A stretch of DNA of 64,000 nucleotides. Source: a virus. The position numbers and the translations under genes were made by a program. This document shows positions 22,646 to 33,956 of the stretch, one piece after another. Under the pieces are notes generated by a model. It saw only the letters and a list, made by a program, of their open reading frames with translations. It ran no database searches and was not told where the DNA came from. Location: positions 1 through 64,000 of IMG/VR virus record IMGVR_UViG_3300025466_000019, one strand, 5' to 3'. Numbering within the stretch: position 1 is the stretch's first letter; every line of letters starts with the position of its first letter.

Positions 22646-25126
22646 TTAACTCGGGAATACATTTCTGTTCAAAGCCTTGGTTGCGCTGACATTTTGCTTG
22701 GCATGATCATTGGATTCTTTTATAACCCGTAACATCTCCATCATTGTGTTATTTAACTTTTTTACTTCGGTTCCAAGATTTATTTCTTCTTTGGCCGCAA
22801 CTGGTGAACTATTGCTAGCAGTGGCAACAGTATCAGACTTTTCATTAGGGCCAAATGCCTTGGTGACCAACGACACAAACCCTGAAACAATTGTTTGTCC
22901 CACGCCCGGCGAAGCTTCTTTGATCTTTTGCATACCAGCTGCTACCTGCGCTAGTTTTGCTGGATCTACTTGATTGAGTTTCTGTAAACCCTCAGCCACA
23001 GTTCCATATCCTTTGCCCAACGCTATCAATCCCAAACTTAACGGAATGGCAGACAGCCCAAAAGCGCTCATTCCCGGAGCTGCCAGCAGCATACGACCAT
23101 ACGGAGCGTTGCTTATAAAATCCGCTAGATTCATGCCCAGAGCTCCTAATCCGTTTCCGCCGCCGCTTTTTTGTATAGATTGCAGCCCTGTACCCATGGC
23201 AACAAGTGCAAGGCCCAGCATCCCAAATGCCACGGACGTAAAAATTATTGCCGGAGCAACCGGAGCTGCGAGAGCAGCAGCAGCAGCAAGACCTGTCATG
23301 ACTCCAATTCCTATAAAGGCCGAACCCCAATTAACTCCGCTAAATTCTTTAAAAGCATTGGCCGCTACATATACCGCTGCCCCTAATCCTACGAGAGACG
23401 CTACTCCTAGCAATGCTCTAGGATCTCCTAGTTTTTTGAGACCTTCGGCCAATCCTCCCACGGCCTCTCCTGCACCTTTGCCAATTCCTCCAAGAACTGA
23501 CCCAACTCCGCCAACTCCTTTTCCAACAATGGCTCCGCTGCCACCTACGGCTTCGCCTGCACCTCCTAAAACAGATGCACCAACTGATGCTATACCTGAT
23601 ACAGCACTTTTAAAAGCCATTCTGGCAATAACCGCTGAGATCGCTATTCCAAGCACTGTTATAAGTTTTCCAAATCCGCCAAACAGTCCATTAAGACTTG
23701 ATACTAGAGATGATAAAAATGTCAATGTTTTTCCAAAGACACCAAGTATGCCTGTCACGATTGATATAGGAAGAGAAAAACTATCAATCAAAGATGCTCC
23801 CAGTTCACGAAATCCTTTGTTAAGTTCGGCCATTTCAGATGCTTGGCTTGTTGCCCTAGCAGCTCTTTCGTCGGCTATTTTTTTATCTCTAGCAGCAAAT
23901 GCCTCTTCGTTGTTTAGCCCAGCTTGTGTTTGTTTAGCCACAGTGAGTTGAGCCTGATCTATACCTTTTACAAATCCAAGCACAGCAGGTGAAACTTGGT
24001 TTAGGCCTTGTTGTGCCGCAAGTGAAATGTTGTTTTGCGCTTTTATGTACTCTTTTGATCCCACTGCATATTTTGTCAGATTGGCATATGCCGAGGTCAT
24101 TCCGGGAGCCAATGCTGAGAGCATTTGTCCTTCCTTGGTGATTACAGCACGACCTTGCGCCTGCGCCAAAGCCATATCTCTACCTGCGGTGCCGTACTGT
24201 TGTGTCATGTATTGCACATTTGCTAAAAATTTCTCTCGGATTTCCGGTGCCATTCTAGCAGCAGTTGTTTGTATTTCTGCATCCAATTGTTGTTTTTTCA
24301 TTAATTCATTTTGTTCTTCACGGGATTTTCCTGTTACTTCTGCCAATCGATCCAGCTCTTCCAAGTACTGTACTGCTCCTTCTCTCAATGCTTTATTGGT
24401 TTCAAGTTCCTTGGCGTTGCTGACTCCCGAAGCGGCCAAATACGTCAGCATGCCTTGATTGGCTTCTTGCGCGGTGTATCCCAAAGCCATTAAATCGTTA
24501 CCAGCTTGACTGTTTAGTATTTGCGACGAAAATTTTGAAAATGCTATTACACCGCCATTGACGCTGCCTGTTATCTGTAAAAAAGCGGCACTGTTTGATT
24601 TTATCAAACTGCTAAATTGATCTATAGTTAGATAACTTTTTGCTGCTGCTGTTCTTAGATCGGTTAGGCTTCCAGCAAATGAAGCGCCTGCATTGCTTAT
24701 CTGCTGATAAACTTCAAAGTTTTTTTCCTGCATGGCTGCTGCTTTGGCCAATCCCTGGAAAACCAATCCCACCACTGTGGAATCATTTGCAAATGTTTTA
24801 AAAATACCGCTAGCAGACGAAGTGCCTTCAACTAAAGAATTTAAACTGGAATGAAATAACGTTTGTTTTTGTCGCAGATCTTCAGCGTTTTTTGATAATT
24901 TTTTGAATTCTTCAGATTGCTTGTTTGTTTTTGCTGATAGATCTTTTAGAGATTCTGCTGTTTCGCTAACATTTAGACCAGCGGCCTGCGCTAATTTTTT
25001 TAGGTCTTCTTTATTTTTTAGTCCAGCAGCTACTGTTGCCTGTAATAGTTTGTTTAAGGTGGCTTCTGTGGCGGCATTTTCTAAATTTACTTGTTGATCG
25101 CCTATTTGTCCGGTCACATTGCTCAT
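22646..25126 (-). CDS. Probable tail tape-measure protein (826 aa)
   Basis: The 826-residue product has a helical N-terminal half with polar heptads (EEFKKLSKNAEDLRQKQ, LEELDRLAEVTGKSREEQ) and a hydrophobic, glycine/alanine-rich region at ~440-700 (ISIVTGILGVFGKTLTFL and more), then KLNQVDPAKLAQVAAGM repeats and a helical C-terminus. This profile fits a tape-measure protein, which fixes tail length and enters the cell membrane. T4 gp29 has this role, but I cannot show homology. It lies divergent from the gp26/gp51-like pair, matching the usual closeness of tape-measure and chaperone genes. The start has only a weak GGGG ribosome site. Confidence 0.65.
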   Translation of the reverse strand: MSNVTGQIGDQQVNLENAATEATLNKLLQATVAAGLKNKEDLKKLAQAAGLNVSETAESLKDLSAKTNKQSEEFKKLSKNAEDLRQKQTLFHSSLNSLVEGTSSASGIFKTFANDSTVVGLVFQGLAKAAAMQEKNFEVYQQISNAGASFAGSLTDLRTAAAKSYLTIDQFSSLIKSNSAAFLQITGSVNGGVIAFSKFSSQILNSQAGNDLMALGYTAQEANQGMLTYLAASGVSNAKELETNKALREGAVQYLEELDRLAEVTGKSREEQNELMKKQQLDAEIQTTAARMAPEIREKFLANVQYMTQQYGTAGRDMALAQAQGRAVITKEGQMLSALAPGMTSAYANLTKYAVGSKEYIKAQNNISLAAQQGLNQVSPAVLGFVKGIDQAQLTVAKQTQAGLNNEEAFAARDKKIADERAARATSQASEMAELNKGFRELGASLIDSFSLPISIVTGILGVFGKTLTFLSSLVSSLNGLFGGFGKLITVLGIAISAVIARMAFKSAVSGIASVGASVLGGAGEAVGGSGAIVGKGVGGVGSVLGGIGKGAGEAVGGLAEGLKKLGDPRALLGVASLVGLGAAVYVAANAFKEFSGVNWGSAFIGIGVMTGLAAAAALAAPVAPAIIFTSVAFGMLGLALVAMGTGLQSIQKSGGGNGLGALGMNLADFISNAPYGRMLLAAPGMSAFGLSAIPLSLGLIALGKGYGTVAEGLQKLNQVDPAKLAQVAAGMQKIKEASPGVGQTIVSGFVSLVTKAFGPNEKSDTVATASNSSPVAAKEEINLGTEVKKLNNTMMEMLRVIKESNDHAKQNVSATKALNRNVFPS

Positions 25127-25199: not shown

Positions 25200-26069
25200 A
25201 TGCAAAATCCGCCCAAGATACAAACCAAAATAAATCCCTTGGCTGGTCTTATGAGACAGCCTAAAATTTATGTGACCCTTCCTAGCAATGGAAAATATTG
25301 GCCAGAAGGCAGTTTGAACATCAGCAGCAGTGGCGAATATCCGGTATTCTCAATGACTGCCAAAGATGAACTGACGCTAAAAACGCCTGATGCTTTGTTA
25401 AATGGACAGGCTGTAGTGGAAGTATTAGAAAGTTGTATTCCAAACATCATAGACGGATGGCAGGTGCCGCAGATTGATCTTGACGCATTGTTGATAGCCA
25501 TCCGGATGGCCACTTACGGTAACACCATGGATAACAATGTCAAAATTGGCGACGAAGAAGCTGTATACTCAGTGGATTTACGACTGCTGTTGGAGCAACT
25601 TAAATCTCAAATTTCCTGGGATGAACGCATTGAAGTCACTGATTCACTCATTATCTACGTTAGACCTCTAAACTATCGAGAACTATCCAAGGCCAGTATT
25701 GAATCCTTTGAAACACAGCGTATTCTAAATTTAGTCAACGACAAAGACATGGATGAAGATAAGAAAATTGCAGTGTTTAAAAAAAGTTTTAACAAATTGA
25801 CTGAAGTAACTTTGGGCATTGTGGCCAATTCAATTTACCGGATTGATACCAACAGCGGTTCTGTTACCGATCAGGAATTCATAAAAGATTTTATAGCACA
25901 GTGCGATAGAGAAATTTTCAATGCAGTAAAAAATAGATTGGATGAACTGAAGGAAAAAAATAGCATCAAACCCATGCGCGTTCAGGCCACTGCAGAAATG
26001 ATCGCAGCCGGGTCCGCAGAAGAAATAGAGGTGCCAATCATGTTTGATACTTCAAATTTTTTCGAATAA
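25200..26069 (+). CDS. 26: Baseplate hub gp26-like protein (T4 baseplate family, 289 aa)
   Basis: The product shows the gp26 family pattern: LAGLMRQPKIYVTLPSNGKYWPEG, VFSMTAKDELTLKTPDALLNG, LESCIPNIIDGWQVPQIDLDALL and a helical C-terminal half. In T4 gp26 acts with gp51 in building the baseplate hub. The ribosome site is GGAG. The last codons AAT TTT TTC GAA TAA carry a slippery heptamer, so part of the ribosomes may continue in the -1 frame into the gp51-like region. T4 gp26 is 208 residues; this one is longer. It is next to the tape-measure gene, the usual place of tail-assembly chaperones. Confidence 0.8.
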   Translation: MQNPPKIQTKINPLAGLMRQPKIYVTLPSNGKYWPEGSLNISSSGEYPVFSMTAKDELTLKTPDALLNGQAVVEVLESCIPNIIDGWQVPQIDLDALLIAIRMATYGNTMDNNVKIGDEEAVYSVDLRLLLEQLKSQISWDERIEVTDSLIIYVRPLNYRELSKASIESFETQRILNLVNDKDMDEDKKIAVFKKSFNKLTEVTLGIVANSIYRIDTNSGSVTDQEFIKDFIAQCDREIFNAVKNRLDELKEKNSIKPMRVQATAEMIAAGSAEEIEVPIMFDTSNFFE

Positions 26070-26089
26070 GGCTTTTGTTATTGAGCCTT
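26057..26089 (+). other. Candidate -1 programmed frameshift signal
   Basis: The heptamer T TTT TTC at 26057-26063 is in the correct phase for a -1 slip and lies just before the stop codon at 26067. Four bases later a hairpin begins (AAGGCT at 26068-26073, AGCCTT at 26084-26089, plus one G-U pair, loop of about eight bases). The -1 frame is open from 26048 through 26293, and it has no ATG near its beginning. This is the layout of frameshifted tail-chaperone genes in many phages. Confidence 0.7.
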
Positions 26090-26293
26090 GAAGAAATTGA
26101 CCAGTTGGTTCAAGGCATGGATAGAGAAGCAAAAGCCTTAAGAGAGGAACTGTTTAGGATTTGCTGGTTCATGAGAGGCGGAGTCACCATAACAGAAGCC
26201 TACAGCCTTGATTATCAGGATAGAGAATCTATTGGCAAAATCATTGAAGGCAATCTAGAAACCACTAAAAGCAGTGGCCTACCATTCTTTTAA
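26063..26293 (+). CDS. 51: gp51-like -1 frame extension (76 aa beyond the slip)
   Basis: The frame reads RIRLLLLSLEEIDQLVQGMDRE and then EELFRICWFMRGGVTITEAYSL, ending NLETTKSSGLPFF. The CWFMRGG and ETTKxSGLPFF elements match the gp51-like (hub assembly) family of marine T4-like phages. Its only early start codons are TTG (26075 and 26081, the latter with AAGG nine bases upstream), then an ATG at 26117 that would lose conserved sequence. Translation as a C-terminal extension of the gp26-like protein (about 364 residues) is therefore favoured; independent TTG initiation cannot be excluded. Its stop overlaps the stop of the convergent gene. Confidence 0.7.
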   Translation, partial: RIRLLLLSLEEIDQLVQGMDREAKALREELFRICWFMRGGVTITEAYSLDYQDRESIGKIIEGNLETTKSSGLPFF

Positions 26294-28009: not shown

Positions 28010-28438
28010 CTAGAGTTTTTTAATAATATGTGAGCCGTGTACGCGAACTCTTATCTGATTGTTGTAATAATCAGTTGATTCCAACACCTGATGTTCAAAT
28101 TGCAGCTTTGCTTCCATGTAGGAGCATTCGGCCTTTGATTTACAAAACAGTAATATTTCGCGTTTGAAATTTTCTTTGCCTAATTTTTCTATGTCTTGAG
28201 TGAGTTCTTTTGATGAGCCGTGATATGTTTGCCAGTCTGATTCTATGGTGCTTTTGATTTTTTTGCGCTTTTTTTTGCCATTTTTTAACTTGACCATTCT
28301 ATATTTTGTTTTTGAAAATGCCGCGAGTTTTTTTCCAATATACTTTCTGCCAGAAATTAAATTTGTAATAAGATAAACAAATCCTGCACAATCTTGAGGA
28401 AGTTCTGTTATTTCCATTCCTTGATAATGCCATGACAT
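28010..28438 (-). CDS. GIY-YIG homing endonuclease, SegE-like (142 aa)
   Basis: The N-terminal part has GFVYLITNLISGRKYIGKK, the GIY-YIG motif pair, followed by a basic stretch KLKNGKKKRKKIK and DWQTYHGSSKELTQDIEKLG, typical of the putative endonuclease segE family of T4-like phages. It nicks or cuts DNA and promotes its own spread. I chose the ATG at 28438, which overlaps the preceding stop by one base. It is freestanding and lies next to the structured non-coding stretch. Whether it is active is not known. Confidence 0.8.
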   Translation of the reverse strand: MSWHYQGMEITELPQDCAGFVYLITNLISGRKYIGKKLAAFSKTKYRMVKLKNGKKKRKKIKSTIESDWQTYHGSSKELTQDIEKLGKENFKREILLFCKSKAECSYMEAKLQFEHQVLESTDYYNNQIRVRVHGSHIIKKL

Positions 28439-29394
28439 CAATCTAAAAATACCGATTTAAATTGACTCATAACAGTGTCTGGATTAAATTTGTCAACAAT
28501 TTTTTTATATTCCCTGTTAAATGATTTTATATTAAGTATTTTTTCTTGCATATCCTGTTGATCGTTATATAGTAATCCTGTTCCTTGTAACATATTGATA
28601 TGATTAAGATCAATGCCGTTGTTCCATGCCAACACCGGTTTATTGAAATATAAAAATTCCGAGATAGCTAGACCAAAACTTTCTCCTATATATCTTGCAT
28701 GGACCATTCCGTCGCAAGTATTAATAAAATTTGATTTAAATTGTAAATCTTGAAAACCTGGAACATGAATGATATTAGGATGAGAATACCATTCTGCACA
28801 ATTGCCCATGAGAAAAACAATTTCATCTGTTTTATTTAAAACATCAATAATGGCTGTTCTAGCCCATTCCATCTGATGTCCAAAACCCCAGTAATCGCCT
28901 AATCTTCCGATTACAATTTTATTTTTAGGTATTCCAAAATAATCTCGTAAATCCTGTGTAGGTTCAGGCAGTTGCACAATATAGGGCACCCATGGTATTT
29001 TCCCATCACTACAGTAATTAGATAACCATTCTGAGATAAATGCATATTTTCCATGTCCATATGGATTTTTATTTTGAAATACAGCATGTACAGCTACCGA
29101 GGTGATATCGGGCAAGGGTTCAGGCCCTCCGTGTCTCATAAAATAGGCTAGATCGATATCTTTGCAAACTCCGTCATAATTGTTGTCATTGGATATAGTT
29201 CTTACTTCAAATTCTTTTTGAAATGACGAAATTATTTCAAAGCTATTGGTTTCATCCACGTTGCAAGGAATGTCTCTGTTATAACAAATTACACTTTCAT
29301 TTCCTAAAATTTCCTGATTATAGCGTGCATAATCTCTTATAGCAACTGTACTTCCTCTTAAATTTAATTGATTGCAATAGAATAAAATTTTCAT
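28438..29394 (-). CDS. GT-B type glycosyltransferase (318 aa)
   Basis: The product starts MKILFYCNQLNLRGSTVAIRDYARY, a typical GT-B N-terminal Rossmann strand with glycine loop, and has the C-terminal donor-domain pattern IHVPGFQDLQFKSNFINTCDGMVHARYIGESFGLAISEFLYFNKPVLAW, where the ESFGLAISE element corresponds to the E-x7-E motif of retaining enzymes. The donor and acceptor sugars cannot be told. It is paired with a methyltransferase gene 9 bp upstream. Modification of host surface glycan, of phage DNA or of virion protein are all open. Confidence 0.75.
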   Translation of the reverse strand: MKILFYCNQLNLRGSTVAIRDYARYNQEILGNESVICYNRDIPCNVDETNSFEIISSFQKEFEVRTISNDNNYDGVCKDIDLAYFMRHGGPEPLPDITSVAVHAVFQNKNPYGHGKYAFISEWLSNYCSDGKIPWVPYIVQLPEPTQDLRDYFGIPKNKIVIGRLGDYWGFGHQMEWARTAIIDVLNKTDEIVFLMGNCAEWYSHPNIIHVPGFQDLQFKSNFINTCDGMVHARYIGESFGLAISEFLYFNKPVLAWNNGIDLNHINMLQGTGLLYNDQQDMQEKILNIKSFNREYKKIVDKFNPDTVMSQFKSVFLD

Positions 29395-29403
29395 AATCTT
29401 TCC

Positions 29404-30174
29404 TTATTTCCAAACAGCTCGATGTCTTACTCCGTCATACATCACTCTACTATCTTCCATTACAATTTCAAATGGTTTCATACGCATTCCAAATTGATCA
29501 AATAAGATTTCTAAACTTTTTCCTGAATACATGCAAACATGTCCATTCCTTGGTGATATATAATAAGAATTAATACCTTCGGTGGTCATGGTGTCATTGA
29601 CGAGAGTACTAAAAATTATCTGTCCGGTAGGTTTTAAATAATTAATCATTTCTCTTATTGTTTCACAAGGGAAAGGAGTATGTTCTAATACTTCGATAGC
29701 AGTAATGACATCAAATTTTTTATTCTTATCAAACTGCGGCTGAATTTGCCACATAGGATCCCATCCAATTGCATCTATTCCATCATTTTGTAAAAGTTGA
29801 CTAAAATCATTTGTACCGGCTCCATAGTCTAATACTGATAAATTATTTTTTTTTCCAAATACAGAATAAAACCATTCGATACAATTTTTTGGTCGAATAT
29901 TTTTATATTCTGGATCCACTACTATATATTGATCATTATAGATATTGTTTAAAAAATCATCTTTTGACCAAGTATCGAAGTCTATCGTAAAAATAAATCC
30001 ACAGTCATTACAACGATGATAGTAAACTGCTACACCGATCAAGGGCATTTGATTCAATATTCGATCACCTTCGCAACTTTTATTAAAATCACATACCCCG
30101 TAGATCTTGGTTGACCCATCACAGATTTTACAATGTAGATTTTGATATTGTGCTGTGACAGGTTTGTTAATCAT
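29404..30174 (-). CDS. Class I SAM-dependent methyltransferase with zinc-binding N-terminus (256 aa)
   Basis: Two Cys pairs (CKIC at residues 15-18 and CNDC around 55-58) suggest a small zinc-bound domain at the start, as in C-methyltransferases of sugar pathways. The SAM-binding motif is VLDYGAGTNDFSQLL, followed by FDVITAIEVLEHTPFP and then LKPTGQIIFSTLVND. These are motifs I, II and III of the Methyltransf_23/11 type. Acting with the neighbouring glycosyltransferase it may modify a sugar chain. Start overlaps the stop of the Hc1-like gene (ATGA). Confidence 0.8.
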   Translation of the reverse strand: MINKPVTAQYQNLHCKICDGSTKIYGVCDFNKSCEGDRILNQMPLIGVAVYYHRCNDCGFIFTIDFDTWSKDDFLNNIYNDQYIVVDPEYKNIRPKNCIEWFYSVFGKKNNLSVLDYGAGTNDFSQLLQNDGIDAIGWDPMWQIQPQFDKNKKFDVITAIEVLEHTPFPCETIREMINYLKPTGQIIFSTLVNDTMTTEGINSYYISPRNGHVCMYSGKSLEILFDQFGMRMKPFEIVMEDSRVMYDGVRHRAVWK

Positions 30175-30401: not shown

Positions 30402-30651
30402 TTTTTTTCCTTTCTTTGATTTTTCTACGTTCAACTATTCTCTGTCTTTTTTCTTCTAGCATTTTGGTTCTAGTAATGGTACAATTTCTTCTCATTTCTG
30501 CAACTAATTTTTTAAGTCGTTTCATTACCTTGGTAATGCTTTCGGAATTATAATAATTTGGTCTTCTAATAAATCTTAAATGAGCATTGTGATACTCGGC
30601 TAAAAGATCAATAAATTCTTTATGTAATTCTATGTACTTGTTTATCATCAT
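30343..30651 (-). CDS. Small helical basic protein of unknown function (102 aa)
   Basis: It begins at the ATG overlapping the gp46 stop by 4 bp, so it is translationally coupled. The sequence is helical and charged (HKEFIDLLAEYHNAHLRFIRR, then VMKRLKKLVAEMRRN) and ends in Asn-rich NTNINTNADINPGINNN, which is the alternate reading of the repeat that gives the neighbour its Thr/Pro tract. No family is recognised. Basic charge suggests nucleic-acid contact, but this is only a guess. Confidence 0.55.
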   Translation of the reverse strand: MMINKYIELHKEFIDLLAEYHNAHLRFIRRPNYYNSESITKVMKRLKKLVAEMRRNCTITRTKMLEEKRQRIVERRKIKERKKNENTNINTNADINPGINNN

Positions 30652-32639
30652 GCATCAATCCAGTCGGCTGAATTTGAATAAGATGTAAATCCGGATTCTT
30701 TTACCACTCGTAGTACATTGTTTACTCTTCCGATCAATTCCTCTTTGTGTGAAATCAGGAAAATGTTTTTATTTCTTTCTCTGGCCATCTTTTTTAACAC
30801 ACTTAGCCCTGCTTCAACACCTGCGGAATCCATGCCAGAATCTATCAACTCGTCAATAAACAGCAGATTGATGGGTTTATACAAGTTTTCCCAAACATCT
30901 CGAAAGGCAAAACTCATGCTCAATATCAGTCTGTTACGTTCGCCTCGTGAAAGATTATCAAAATCTAGATCTTGACCAAAATTGGTGATTTCAACCGATA
31001 AATCATTTTGAAAAACCACCATATGAGGTAATCCCAATTTGTCTATGTAATAGCTTAGTCGTTTGTTGAGATAATTTAAATTTTGATCGATGATCTTTTT
31101 GCGTATAAAACTTTCTTTATTGGTCAGCAGCTTCAATAGGAATTCTTGATGTTCTTTTAAATTGTTTAATTCGTTGATCTTGTGCCATGCAATTTCCTGC
31201 AATGCGGTTTTTTCTAATTCTTCAATTTGTTCCTGATAGGGATTTTCATCCTGTTTTCTGTCAATCAATGTTTTCTCTAAAGAGTTAACTTGACTTTTAT
31301 GATTGAGTGCATCGGCCTGTGTGGGATAAAACACAGTGGGCTTGTTGCCAATCTCGCCCACACCGTGAATCTGATCCACTACATTTTGCAATGTTTGATA
31401 CACAGCATCATAATAATCTGTGGCATCTTTTAGATTGTGTTCAGCGTCATGCACCAAGTTGGTATGCTTGTGATCCTGAAGAGTCTGTTCACACTGAGGA
31501 CATTTTCGATCCGCCAATGCTGCAATTTCTCTTTGATATTTTTTAACCGACTTGTCCGCCTGTGACAATGCAGACTCGTAACTGATTTTTTGTCTGCGTA
31601 AATCCGTCAGCTGGTTATTTTTTTCCTGCCACAGAGCGAGGCCGGCATGATCGCTCAATTCCTGTTCAATGTCAATGGCTTGCAAGGTCACGATGGCATC
31701 ACTGAGATCTTGTAAATCGGAGGTCTTTTTATTTTCCCATGCGGTACTTTTTAGTATCAAAGAATTGATACTGCGTTGCACACTTTCGTTGGCTGTTTTT
31801 ATGCTTTCAATTTTAATCTGTTCGGTTTGTATAGAATCCTTAGAAGATTTAATCAACAGTTTGAGTGTTTCGGCCTTTTCACTCAGCAAAGTGATGCCCA
31901 GCAGTTGTTCAATCACTTCTCGTTGATCCGCAGCCTTCATGGAAAGAAAAGGTTCGGTATATGTGTTCAAGGCTACTAGATGTTTGAACATGGTATGACT
32001 CATGCCCAACTTGTGTTCTATGAATTTTTGCGTTTCTCTGCTGTCGCCCTGCGCATCATCGTCCTTGCTTTCATGCTCGTGATTATTGATGAAAACCTTG
32101 AGCACGTTTGGTTTTCGACCTCGTTCAATGCGTATAAGTTCGCCGTCATTTTCAAACTCGCCGGTGACCAACATGTTCTTGCCGTTGATTTTGTTGATCA
32201 AGTTTTCTTTCTTGATATTGGACAACGCCTGCCCAAACCACAGATAGGACAATGAATTAATAATGGTCGTGTTGTGTGATAATATGCCGTTGGTATAGTA
32301 TCTGTGATCTGCCGAATCTACTGTGATATCAAACATGTTTTCTGTTCTATCGGACACAGACAGCGAGGTAACTAGTTCTGGACCATGCTGGGTCTGCACA
32401 TATGAGCTTGGTTTGATATGCTTGACGAATTTTTCGTTGAGCTTTTCATCAAACAAGATATGATCATCTGCGCACTCAAGCATTTTTCCGGATTCTGTTT
32501 GAATAGTCCAAACTTGATATGGCACAGTTTTCATTATTTTAGAAATGGGTTTCCACCCAGAATCTGTTTCTATCTCAAGATTCTGCAAATCCACACTGTC
32601 GACAAATTTTCTGTTCACTGTGTCAGAAATTGAATGCAT
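30648..32639 (-). CDS. 46: gp46 C-terminal part preceded by C-terminal split intein fragment (663 aa)
   Basis: Residues 1-123 are the C-terminal part of an intein: SGKMLECADDHILFD is block B and the end is DSADHRYYTNGILSHN. The extein then continues TTIINSLSYLWFGQAL from residue 124 to 663. It has the Rad50-like coiled coil, the zinc hook CPQC (LADRKCPQCEQTL), the ABC signature LSRGERNRLILS and Walker B LLFIDELID. Walker A is completed only after splicing with the upstream fragment (GSRNGTGK + TT). gp46 with gp47 is the T4 recombination nuclease used in replication and host DNA degradation. The start ATG has AGGA ten bases upstream. Confidence 0.93.
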   Translation of the reverse strand: MHSISDTVNRKFVDSVDLQNLEIETDSGWKPISKIMKTVPYQVWTIQTESGKMLECADDHILFDEKLNEKFVKHIKPSSYVQTQHGPELVTSLSVSDRTENMFDITVDSADHRYYTNGILSHNTTIINSLSYLWFGQALSNIKKENLINKINGKNMLVTGEFENDGELIRIERGRKPNVLKVFINNHEHESKDDDAQGDSRETQKFIEHKLGMSHTMFKHLVALNTYTEPFLSMKAADQREVIEQLLGITLLSEKAETLKLLIKSSKDSIQTEQIKIESIKTANESVQRSINSLILKSTAWENKKTSDLQDLSDAIVTLQAIDIEQELSDHAGLALWQEKNNQLTDLRRQKISYESALSQADKSVKKYQREIAALADRKCPQCEQTLQDHKHTNLVHDAEHNLKDATDYYDAVYQTLQNVVDQIHGVGEIGNKPTVFYPTQADALNHKSQVNSLEKTLIDRKQDENPYQEQIEELEKTALQEIAWHKINELNNLKEHQEFLLKLLTNKESFIRKKIIDQNLNYLNKRLSYYIDKLGLPHMVVFQNDLSVEITNFGQDLDFDNLSRGERNRLILSMSFAFRDVWENLYKPINLLFIDELIDSGMDSAGVEAGLSVLKKMARERNKNIFLISHKEELIGRVNNVLRVVKESGFTSYSNSADWIDA

Positions 32640-33715
32640 TTTTCTATGGTTCCTGTCTTATCTTTTTTGAAATCTGATTCCCATACCACTAATACTTCAT
32701 AGCCTTGATCAAAGGCGACCTTTAATTTTATACGGTCGATCTCCCATCTGTCAATGGCTTTGATTTTTGTTCTTGGATTTATATGTTCTGATGAATATTT
32801 CTTTGGGTTACTGTGCCAAAAATCGCCATTATATTCAATAATTTTTTTGCCAACATTTATGTCATAGACATATTGCTTTTTATCTGACTTATTCAATGTG
32901 AATTGATGTTCTACTGATGGAAATATTTTCTTTACTTCAGCAAGGATTATTTTTTCAGCAGCAGAGACAGTGATTCCTTTTGATAATTTCAATCGATTAA
33001 TTCTAGCTTTCTCTTCTGGTAATTTAGCACTTAATGTTGCTTGCCACTTATCCTGTCTCGCTTGCCAAATTGATATTCCGTTTTCTTCTCCATATTTTTG
33101 TACACAGATATCTTTGGAAAAATATTTTTGATTCTCTGATACCAGCTCTTTTGCTTCATCAATGGAATATCCTCTAGCAGTGTAGTATTCTTCACATCTT
33201 TTCGATGTTGCTCTTCGGATATGTTTATCCATCCCAATTTTAGCACCTTTTTTATTATTTTTTTGTTTGGTATCCGATGCTAACTGTGCGGCATCTATTT
33301 CAGAGTAACCCTGTTTGATCCAATACTCTGCTCTAATGGGTCTACGACTATTACGTTCAAAATCTGCTTCATCTACCGTATAGTTTGTTCCAGTGACTGG
33401 ATTGATTTTTTCCAACCAAGTTTTGCGACTGTACACACTTTTACAGTTTTTTTGTTTGTTTTCTTTGGATTTGATGTGAGATTCTGCATCAGTCCATCCT
33501 CGAGACAGCCAGTATACTTTGGTATGTTTTGATAGTGTTGTGGTTAGATTCAATTTGCTTCTCAAAAACTTTTCAATGATCTTTTTATTATTTTCAATAT
33601 TAGATTCTAATAGTTCGTGTAGAAGATTCTGATACAGATCAGATTTGAGATTTTTAATAGTATTATTCAAGATATCTTTGCAGTTATTTTCTAGACTGTT
33701 GTTCCAACGCGGCAT
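32615..33715 (-). CDS. Vsr-like homing endonuclease between the split gp46 genes (366 aa)
   Basis: The C-terminal ~110 residues form a very-short-patch-repair-like nuclease: SAAEKIILAEVKKIFP, YVYDINVGKKIIEYNGDFWHS (Asp285, Glu294, Trp300-His301), WEIDRIKLKVAFDQGYEVLVVWE. The N-terminal half has three copies of a DNA-binding-like repeat with core YW(L/I)xx(R/Q)G(W/Y)SxxEA, near residues 68, 131 and 177. This endonuclease class is known in fractured phage genes. It overlaps the upstream fragment by 32 bp and the downstream fragment by 25 bp, with GGGAG before its start. It is the mobile driver of the split-intein locus, inferred from its position. Confidence 0.85.
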   Translation of the reverse strand: MPRWNNSLENNCKDILNNTIKNLKSDLYQNLLHELLESNIENNKKIIEKFLRSKLNLTTTLSKHTKVYWLSRGWTDAESHIKSKENKQKNCKSVYSRKTWLEKINPVTGTNYTVDEADFERNSRRPIRAEYWIKQGYSEIDAAQLASDTKQKNNKKGAKIGMDKHIRRATSKRCEEYYTARGYSIDEAKELVSENQKYFSKDICVQKYGEENGISIWQARQDKWQATLSAKLPEEKARINRLKLSKGITVSAAEKIILAEVKKIFPSVEHQFTLNKSDKKQYVYDINVGKKIIEYNGDFWHSNPKKYSSEHINPRTKIKAIDRWEIDRIKLKVAFDQGYEVLVVWESDFKKDKTGTIEKCIQFLTQ

Positions 33716-33956
33716 TGTATAATTCTCCCATGGTCAGTTGGGTTATTTCACCAGTTACAGTGTTCCTAACCTTTACTAATGTATTTATACAAACACACTT
33801 GCCAGTGCCATTCCTGCTGCCGGTATCGTCGCCGCCTAGATCGAGATTGGCACCCAGCACCAAGGTCAGCATTTCTTTGCTGAAATCCACAGCCTGAGTC
33901 TGTTGACCCACGCTCATAAAATTCTTTACAGTCAAATTTTTGATTTTCAAGGTCAT
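33684..33956 (-). CDS. 46: gp46 N-terminal part fused to N-terminal split intein fragment (90 aa)
   Basis: Residues 1-53 are the start of gp46 (KIKNLTVKNFMSVGQQTQAVDF, ending GSRNGTGK, most of Walker A). From Cys54 there are 37 intein residues (CVCINTLVKVRNTVTGEITQ and LTMGELYNAALEQQSRK), then a stop. Cysteine directly after the Walker A lysine is the splice junction, and block A is intact. Such a very short N-fragment corresponds to atypically split inteins such as AceL-TerL. Start overlaps the gp47 stop (ATGA). Alone this fragment is useless as an ATPase, so trans-splicing is required to make gp46. Confidence 0.9.
   Translation of the reverse strand: MTLKIKNLTVKNFMSVGQQTQAVDFSKEMLTLVLGANLDLGGDDTGSRNGTGKCVCINTLVKVRNTVTGEITQLTMGELYNAALEQQSRK

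Follow-up and report, generated by a model that had tools for sequence, protein, structure and literature searches.

The DNA analysed here (the window) is a 64-kb stretch of 64,000 nucleotides, part of an 88,348-base virus record, and carries a T4-like portal gene (PF07230) together with T4-like structural genes. Among these is a gp26-like gene whose 3' end reads, in the 0 frame, ...TCA AAT TTT TTC GAA TAA. The features of the locus are as follows.

22646-25126, minus strand: putative tape measure protein (TMP) gene, 826 aa, divergent neighbour of the gp26-like gene
25200-26069, plus strand: candidate TAC-N (tail assembly chaperone) gene, gp26-like (PF12322/phrog_150), 289 aa, 0-frame product
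26057-26063, plus strand: -1 slippery heptamer T_TTT_TTC; the codons TTT TTC encode residues 287-288
26067-26069, plus strand: 0-frame stop TAA, one sense codon past the heptamer
26057-26293, plus strand: -1 extension (TAC-C), 78 codons plus TAA; open frame with -1 codon-phase substitutions
26067-26078, plus strand: 5' arm of a predicted stimulatory stem, from 3 nt past the heptamer
26083-26090, plus strand: 3' arm of a short alternative hairpin, 8 bp, -9.3 kcal/mol
26129-26140, plus strand: 3' arm of the long stem (CAAAAGCCTTA, perfect over 26130-26140)

The heptamer lies in frame near the 3' end of the gp26-like gene, and the -1 frame, open over 26048-26290, ends at the TAA at 26291-26293. 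The predicted frameshift fusion, TAC-NC, would comprise 286 + 78 = 364 residues. The original prediction was accurate as regards the phase of the heptamer, the 0-frame stop 3 nt past the slip site and a fusion of about 364 residues; the -1 frame, which it described as lacking ATG, is open but contains one ATG, at 26117 (extension codon 21).

Elsewhere in the window, the portal protein gene (gp20, PF07230; 19658-22639, minus strand) contains a complete intein that matches HNH weakly. The gp46-like recombination nuclease gene (30648-33956, minus strand) is broken in two inside the P-loop: its N part (33684-33956) ends ...GTGK/CVCINTLVKV..., and is followed by a free-standing endonuclease-like ORF (32615-33715), which gave no Pfam match, and then by an intein C part ending ...GILSHN/TTIINSL and the rest of gp46. 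This arrangement resembles a split intein whose halves are separated by an endonuclease gene of its own. A SegE-type GIY-YIG homing endonuclease gene (PF19835, E = 9.6e-35; 28010-28441, minus strand) stands beside genes with glycosyltransferase and methyltransferase matches (28438-30174). Finally, a perfect 10-bp inverted repeat (AGGCCACTGC at 25984-25993 and GCAGTGGCCT at 26271-26280, 277 nt apart) flanks the frameshift region.

Conservation of the slip site and use of the -1 frame

The 12 large genes of the window contain 17 FF dipeptides, 4 of them with T_TTT_TTY, and a -1 frame open for at least 78 codons is found at about 1% of the in-gene positions. The heptamer by itself is not rare, and the case for frameshifting is therefore made by its conservation. 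A tblastn search retrieved 62 phage records with a gp26-like protein, all below 60% identity. The comparison set comprised 16 annotated jumbo-phage records (Atu_ph07, PBECO4, RaK2, PA5oct, CBB, Phosso, Hallingskeid, BF, Kaldavass, XbC2, GAP32, Munch, Vibrio 2.275.O, XaC1, SCTP-2 and XacN1) and further IMG/VR contigs, with loci deduplicated.

T_TTT_TTC was present at the homologous place in 33 of 33 deduplicated jumbo-phage loci, an additional locus (XacN1) having T_TTT_TTT, and the -1 frame was open for 71-81 codons in every deduplicated locus of this clade, in which the gp26-like proteins are 23-43% identical to that of the window. The same heptamer stands at the end of gp26, before a small -1 frame, in 48 of 48 cyanophage-type loci; phiAS5 and IC12 also have T_TTT_TTC, and RL38J1 has T_TTT_TTG. 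The heptamer, whose conservation in relatives the original prediction had proposed as its own test, is thus conserved in both the jumbo-clade and the cyanophage-type loci. Codon choice and the preceding T are constrained beyond the requirement for FF: F287 and F288 are among only ten invariant residues of the gp26-like set, and the codon before TTT is NNT in all 33 loci, whichever residue it encodes (N, S, H, R, Y or D). A naive product of codon-usage probabilities over the 34 related loci gives 10^-38.8, a figure that ignores shared ancestry and serves as an illustration only.

The locus might be thought to be a broken gene that resembles a frameshift pair by chance or through a sequencing artefact, given how often FF dipeptides of the window are encoded by T_TTT_TTY. 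However, the same junction recurs in dozens of phages that were sequenced independently and infect widely different hosts, and this conservation rules out such a reading in practice, leaving it a negligible probability. The frameshift signal is almost certainly real.

The sequence past the heptamer bears on how the -1 frame is read. At 32 of 33 loci the heptamer is followed by G, so that the -1 residue is Arg in 32 of 33, and the 0-frame residue at this place varies (E, G, A, D, V or R). Over the first 12 -1 codons past FF, which mostly precede the annotated starts, substitutions at codon positions 1/2/3 number 45/36/86 and 128/80/256, with the third position predominating. The G that yields the -1 Arg and the -1 codon phase separate read-through at the slip site from a distinct downstream gene, and they demonstrate, at the level of sequence comparison, that the -1 frame is used for coding directly from the slip site onward.

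The alternative to be weighed against these data is an independent small gene of gp51 type in the -1 frame, expressed by re-initiation or through a TTG or ATG near the stop, with the heptamer being incidental. Annotators do call a distinct small ORF in most relatives; TTG codons are found in the -1 frame of the window at 26075 and 26081, the latter with a partial TAAGG 9 nt upstream; an ATG overlaps the 0-frame stop in PBECO4 and Phosso; and cyanophage-type loci retain an ATG just past that stop. On the other hand, there is no good start near the junction in the window's -1 frame; the first 16 -1 codons, although conserved as protein, contain neither ATG nor GTG nor TTG in 13 of 34 loci; and the -1 Arg next to FF is conserved, as is the -1 codon phase, ahead of any start that has been annotated. 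Moreover, the heptamer is invariant while stop and start positions drift, the 0-frame stop lying anywhere from 1 to 11 codons past the heptamer in the jumbo-clade loci, with the -1 frame staying open. Relatives carrying separate gp51 genes with good ATGs had been named in the original prediction as what would speak against it; separate small ORFs are indeed annotated, but the positions of their ATGs are not conserved. We consider a separate gene very unlikely: some relatives may re-initiate at a start close by, but this leaves the set as a whole unexplained. A joined (frameshifted) gene is annotated in none of the 16 jumbo-phage records examined, and the records of RaK2 and PA5oct have no gene of any kind annotated at the extension.

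RNA structure downstream of the heptamer

The GC-rich AAGGCT/AGCCTT hairpin pointed out in the original prediction exists (z -3.5 over 30 nt), but it is only part of a longer alternative stem that uses 26129-26140; the short hairpin and the long stem have a common 5' arm and are mutually exclusive. The 5' arm and 26130-26140 form a perfect 11-bp inverted repeat, and the 77-nt structure with the long stem has a predicted energy of -29.8 kcal/mol and a z of about -5.5, with 0 shuffles equally good.

Comparable stems begin 3-6 nt past the heptamer in Phosso, XacN1 and the loci L037, L039, L042 and L045, and in Atu_ph07 a similar stem is found within the minimum-energy fold. Three pairs of the stem are changed on both sides, and 80% of the cells pair as against 28-70% when slid, in a set of five sequences; because these five were picked for having the stem, with the partner at a homologous place, the covariation is supportive rather than proof. 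Many enterobacterial jumbo phages, as well as the L002/L028-L034 group, show no significant structure downstream of the heptamer. With so many relatives lacking it, the stem may tune slippage but cannot be what slippage rests on in general. A stimulatory stem conserved throughout the group is thereby ruled out.

The encoded proteins and the putative tape measure neighbour

The upstream protein of the window matches PF12322 (E = 1.1e-10; 42.1 bits against a cut-off of 24.5) and phrog_150 (E = 1.5e-14), the family of both T4 gp26 and T4 gp51, which confirms the gp26-like identity first proposed for it. A profile of the gp26-like set matched the single T4 gp26 or gp51 sequences weakly, and the assignment therefore rests on PF12322/phrog_150. 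In its predicted structure (mean pLDDT 86), the protein resembles most closely the T4-like baseplate hub assembly proteins of BFVD, with TM-scores of 0.84-0.87 to three viral proteins, two of which are named T4-like baseplate proteins. A Foldseek search against the PDB gave no match at E <= 0.001, and a PDB sequence search returned nothing relevant.

Most gp26-like proteins of the relatives have two CxxC pairs (CPxC...C and CxxC-HEW, residues near 117-122 and 262-278), which resemble a zinc ribbon and are lost in the window's own protein. The TAC-N model is also matched, at E of about 1e-4 to 1e-7, by uncharacterised BFVD proteins of about 450-550 aa from Erwinia Special G, Ralstonia RSF1 and RP12, and Klebsiella Eowyn; judging from these predicted structures, such proteins of other large phages may be unrecognised chaperones.

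The -1 extension is less easily placed. Its profile aligned with that of gp51 (phrog_634) with an hhalign probability of 62.5% over 32 columns for the wider set and of 16.8% for the closer set; hmmscan of the extensions of 17 members gave no match to gp51 families and PHROGs nothing convincing, no match was obtained against BFVD structures, and tblastn with the extension only retrieved just Atu_ph07 and Phosso. Given this weak sequence link, the term "gp51-like" used in the original prediction is a positional one with modest support: it is favoured by the location of the frame and its C-terminal place in the fusion, but the profile match is weak, and the sequence comparison weakly suggests that the extension may be homologous to gp51.

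The TMP candidate adjoins the gp26-like gene but is divergent from it, as in most annotated relatives, where its position beside that gene is conserved and it is named virion structural protein or "similar to tape measure". It has no Cys and contains hydrophobic segments. Pfam tape-measure families were not matched, and because no profile match to T4 gp29 was obtained either, the tape measure role of this neighbour is one that we infer. In the CBB virion proteome, CBB_251, the putative TMP homologue, is among the best-covered proteins, with 29 peptides (PMC5259590); its 722 residues represent a size fitting the CBB tail of 123 nm, collar (7.4 nm) and baseplate (14.7 nm) included.

Taken together, we consider it very likely that 25200-26069 gives rise to TAC-N and to a frameshifted TAC-NC, acting as lambda G/GT-type chaperones of the adjoining divergent tape measure protein. 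Most ribosomes would stop at the TAA at 26067, yielding the short TAC-N, while a fraction would slip back one base on T_TTT_TTC and yield the 364-aa TAC-NC, which ends in a helical domain of 78 residues; the stem starting 3-4 nt downstream probably aids slippage. By analogy with lambda G/GT, many copies of TAC-N and few of TAC-NC would coat the tape measure protein, the C domain of TAC-NC would recruit tail tube subunits, and both proteins would depart before tail completion. The occurrence and rate of slippage, the effect of the stem and the chaperone role are what we infer in this scheme.

The frameshift may also be real and yet serve another purpose, its products having a different role in baseplate hub assembly or being minor hub parts. 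Among the hub assembly chaperones listed for T4 are gp26 and gp51, and some studies place gp26 in the hub (PMC3004832); the CBB record labels gp250, the gp26-like homologue, "structural protein"; and the TMP candidate is encoded on the opposite strand. Nevertheless, a short form and a minor frameshifted long form beside a TMP-like gene are the architecture of tail assembly chaperones, and a TAC role has already been proposed for T4-like gp26/gp51 (Vladimirov et al., 2022, as related in PMC10885494 and PMC12846349). In addition, CBB_250, like CBB_249, is not among the 55 CBB virion proteins (PMC5259590), and in the PA5oct record the gp26-like protein carries no mass spectrometry note, while both its neighbours have one. 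A hub role of this kind appears unlikely, and chaperones of the tape measure protein are the reading that we retain.

Relation to known tail assembly chaperones

The proposal of gp26/gp51 as T4-like tail assembly chaperones is due to Vladimirov, Gautam and Davidson (Virology, 2022), according to PMC10885494 and PMC12846349, in which some T4-like phages are also described as using two separate TAC genes; the latter source credits the same authors with poly-T frameshift signals in T4-like TAC-N genes. The chaperone role, which the original prediction regarded as not usually assigned to these proteins, is therefore not new. The same design in T4-like phages, also suggested there, is found in jumbo and cyanophage-type loci but not in T4 itself, where genes 26 and 51 are separate and divergent, no slip site is present at the end of gene 26, and gp51 has its own gp26-like N domain.

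T4 gp51 consists of this PF12322 domain followed by a C-terminal part matching phrog_634. The -1 extensions of the cyanophage-type loci, mostly 63-68 aa long, clearly belong to phrog_634, and those of phiAS5, IC12 and RL38J1 match phrog_634 "baseplate hub assembly catalyst". The slippage fusion therefore matches T4 gp51 in layout, and T4 gp51 can be regarded as a fixed TAC-NC. Cyanophage gp51 was described as having about 20% of the normal length, without the first 200 residues (Sullivan, 2010; PMC3037559). As a phrog_634 extension lies in the -1 frame after gp26, the simplest account of this short gp51 is that it represents one half of a frameshift product, not joined to the other. A scenario with about even chances of being correct is that the gp26/gp51 frameshift is ancestral in T4-related phages and has persisted in jumbo Rak2-like phages and in cyanophages with T_TTT_TTC almost wholly constrained, that the T4 lineage swapped in a duplicated, permanently fused gp51, and that in some of the jumbo phages (the window, Atu_ph07, Phosso and two metagenomic relatives) a covarying stem of about 75 nt adjusts how often slippage occurs. 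In their 2022 abstract, Vladimirov and colleagues reportedly describe conservation of the frameshift in several groups of T4-like phages.

Giant T4-related phages encode a putative recoding switch of the lambda kind, its signal almost without variation, and in them the frameshift locus gives a lead to the tape measure gene. Such a switch accounts simply for the "truncated" cyanophage gp51 and provides a directly testable system for the setting of tail length in very large phages.

With the type represented by lambda G/GT, the window shares an in-phase X_XXY_YYZ heptamer near the end of the upstream gene, and its group shares a conserved -1 extension without a start of its own in 13 of 34 loci, some relatives having an ATG. 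No sequence similarity was found between the window proteins and lambda gpG/gpGT, P2 E/E' or HK97 gp13/14, and HK97 gp13 (2ob9) is a middling structural match to TAC-N (Z 6.3, rmsd 3.5, 89 aligned), ranking 39 among unrelated helical chains. In lambda, the TAC gene lies just upstream of a tape measure gene on the same strand, whereas the TMP candidate of the window is on the opposite strand; being adjacent but divergent, it leads us to class the window pair with the T4-like TACs (gp26 as TAC-N, gp51 as TAC-NC) and not as a lambda homologue. With these it has in common the PF12322 TAC-N, the slippery poly-T at its 3' end and the -1 C-terminal extension, T4 itself differing in the separate, divergent genes described above. 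The cyanophage loci share the heptamer and the small -1 frame but differ from the window in the ATG kept near the junction and in the shorter, recognisable extension. Phage Adele and the Vandenendeviridae/Andersonviridae (PMC12846349) likewise have a conserved -1 frameshift at a poly-T site with an unannotated downstream ORF, on comparable comparative evidence, although the slip site (GTTTTT) and the phage families are different. The principle is therefore known, and what is new here, and well supported, is the conserved frameshift of jumbo Rak2-like phages, absent from the annotation of every record examined.
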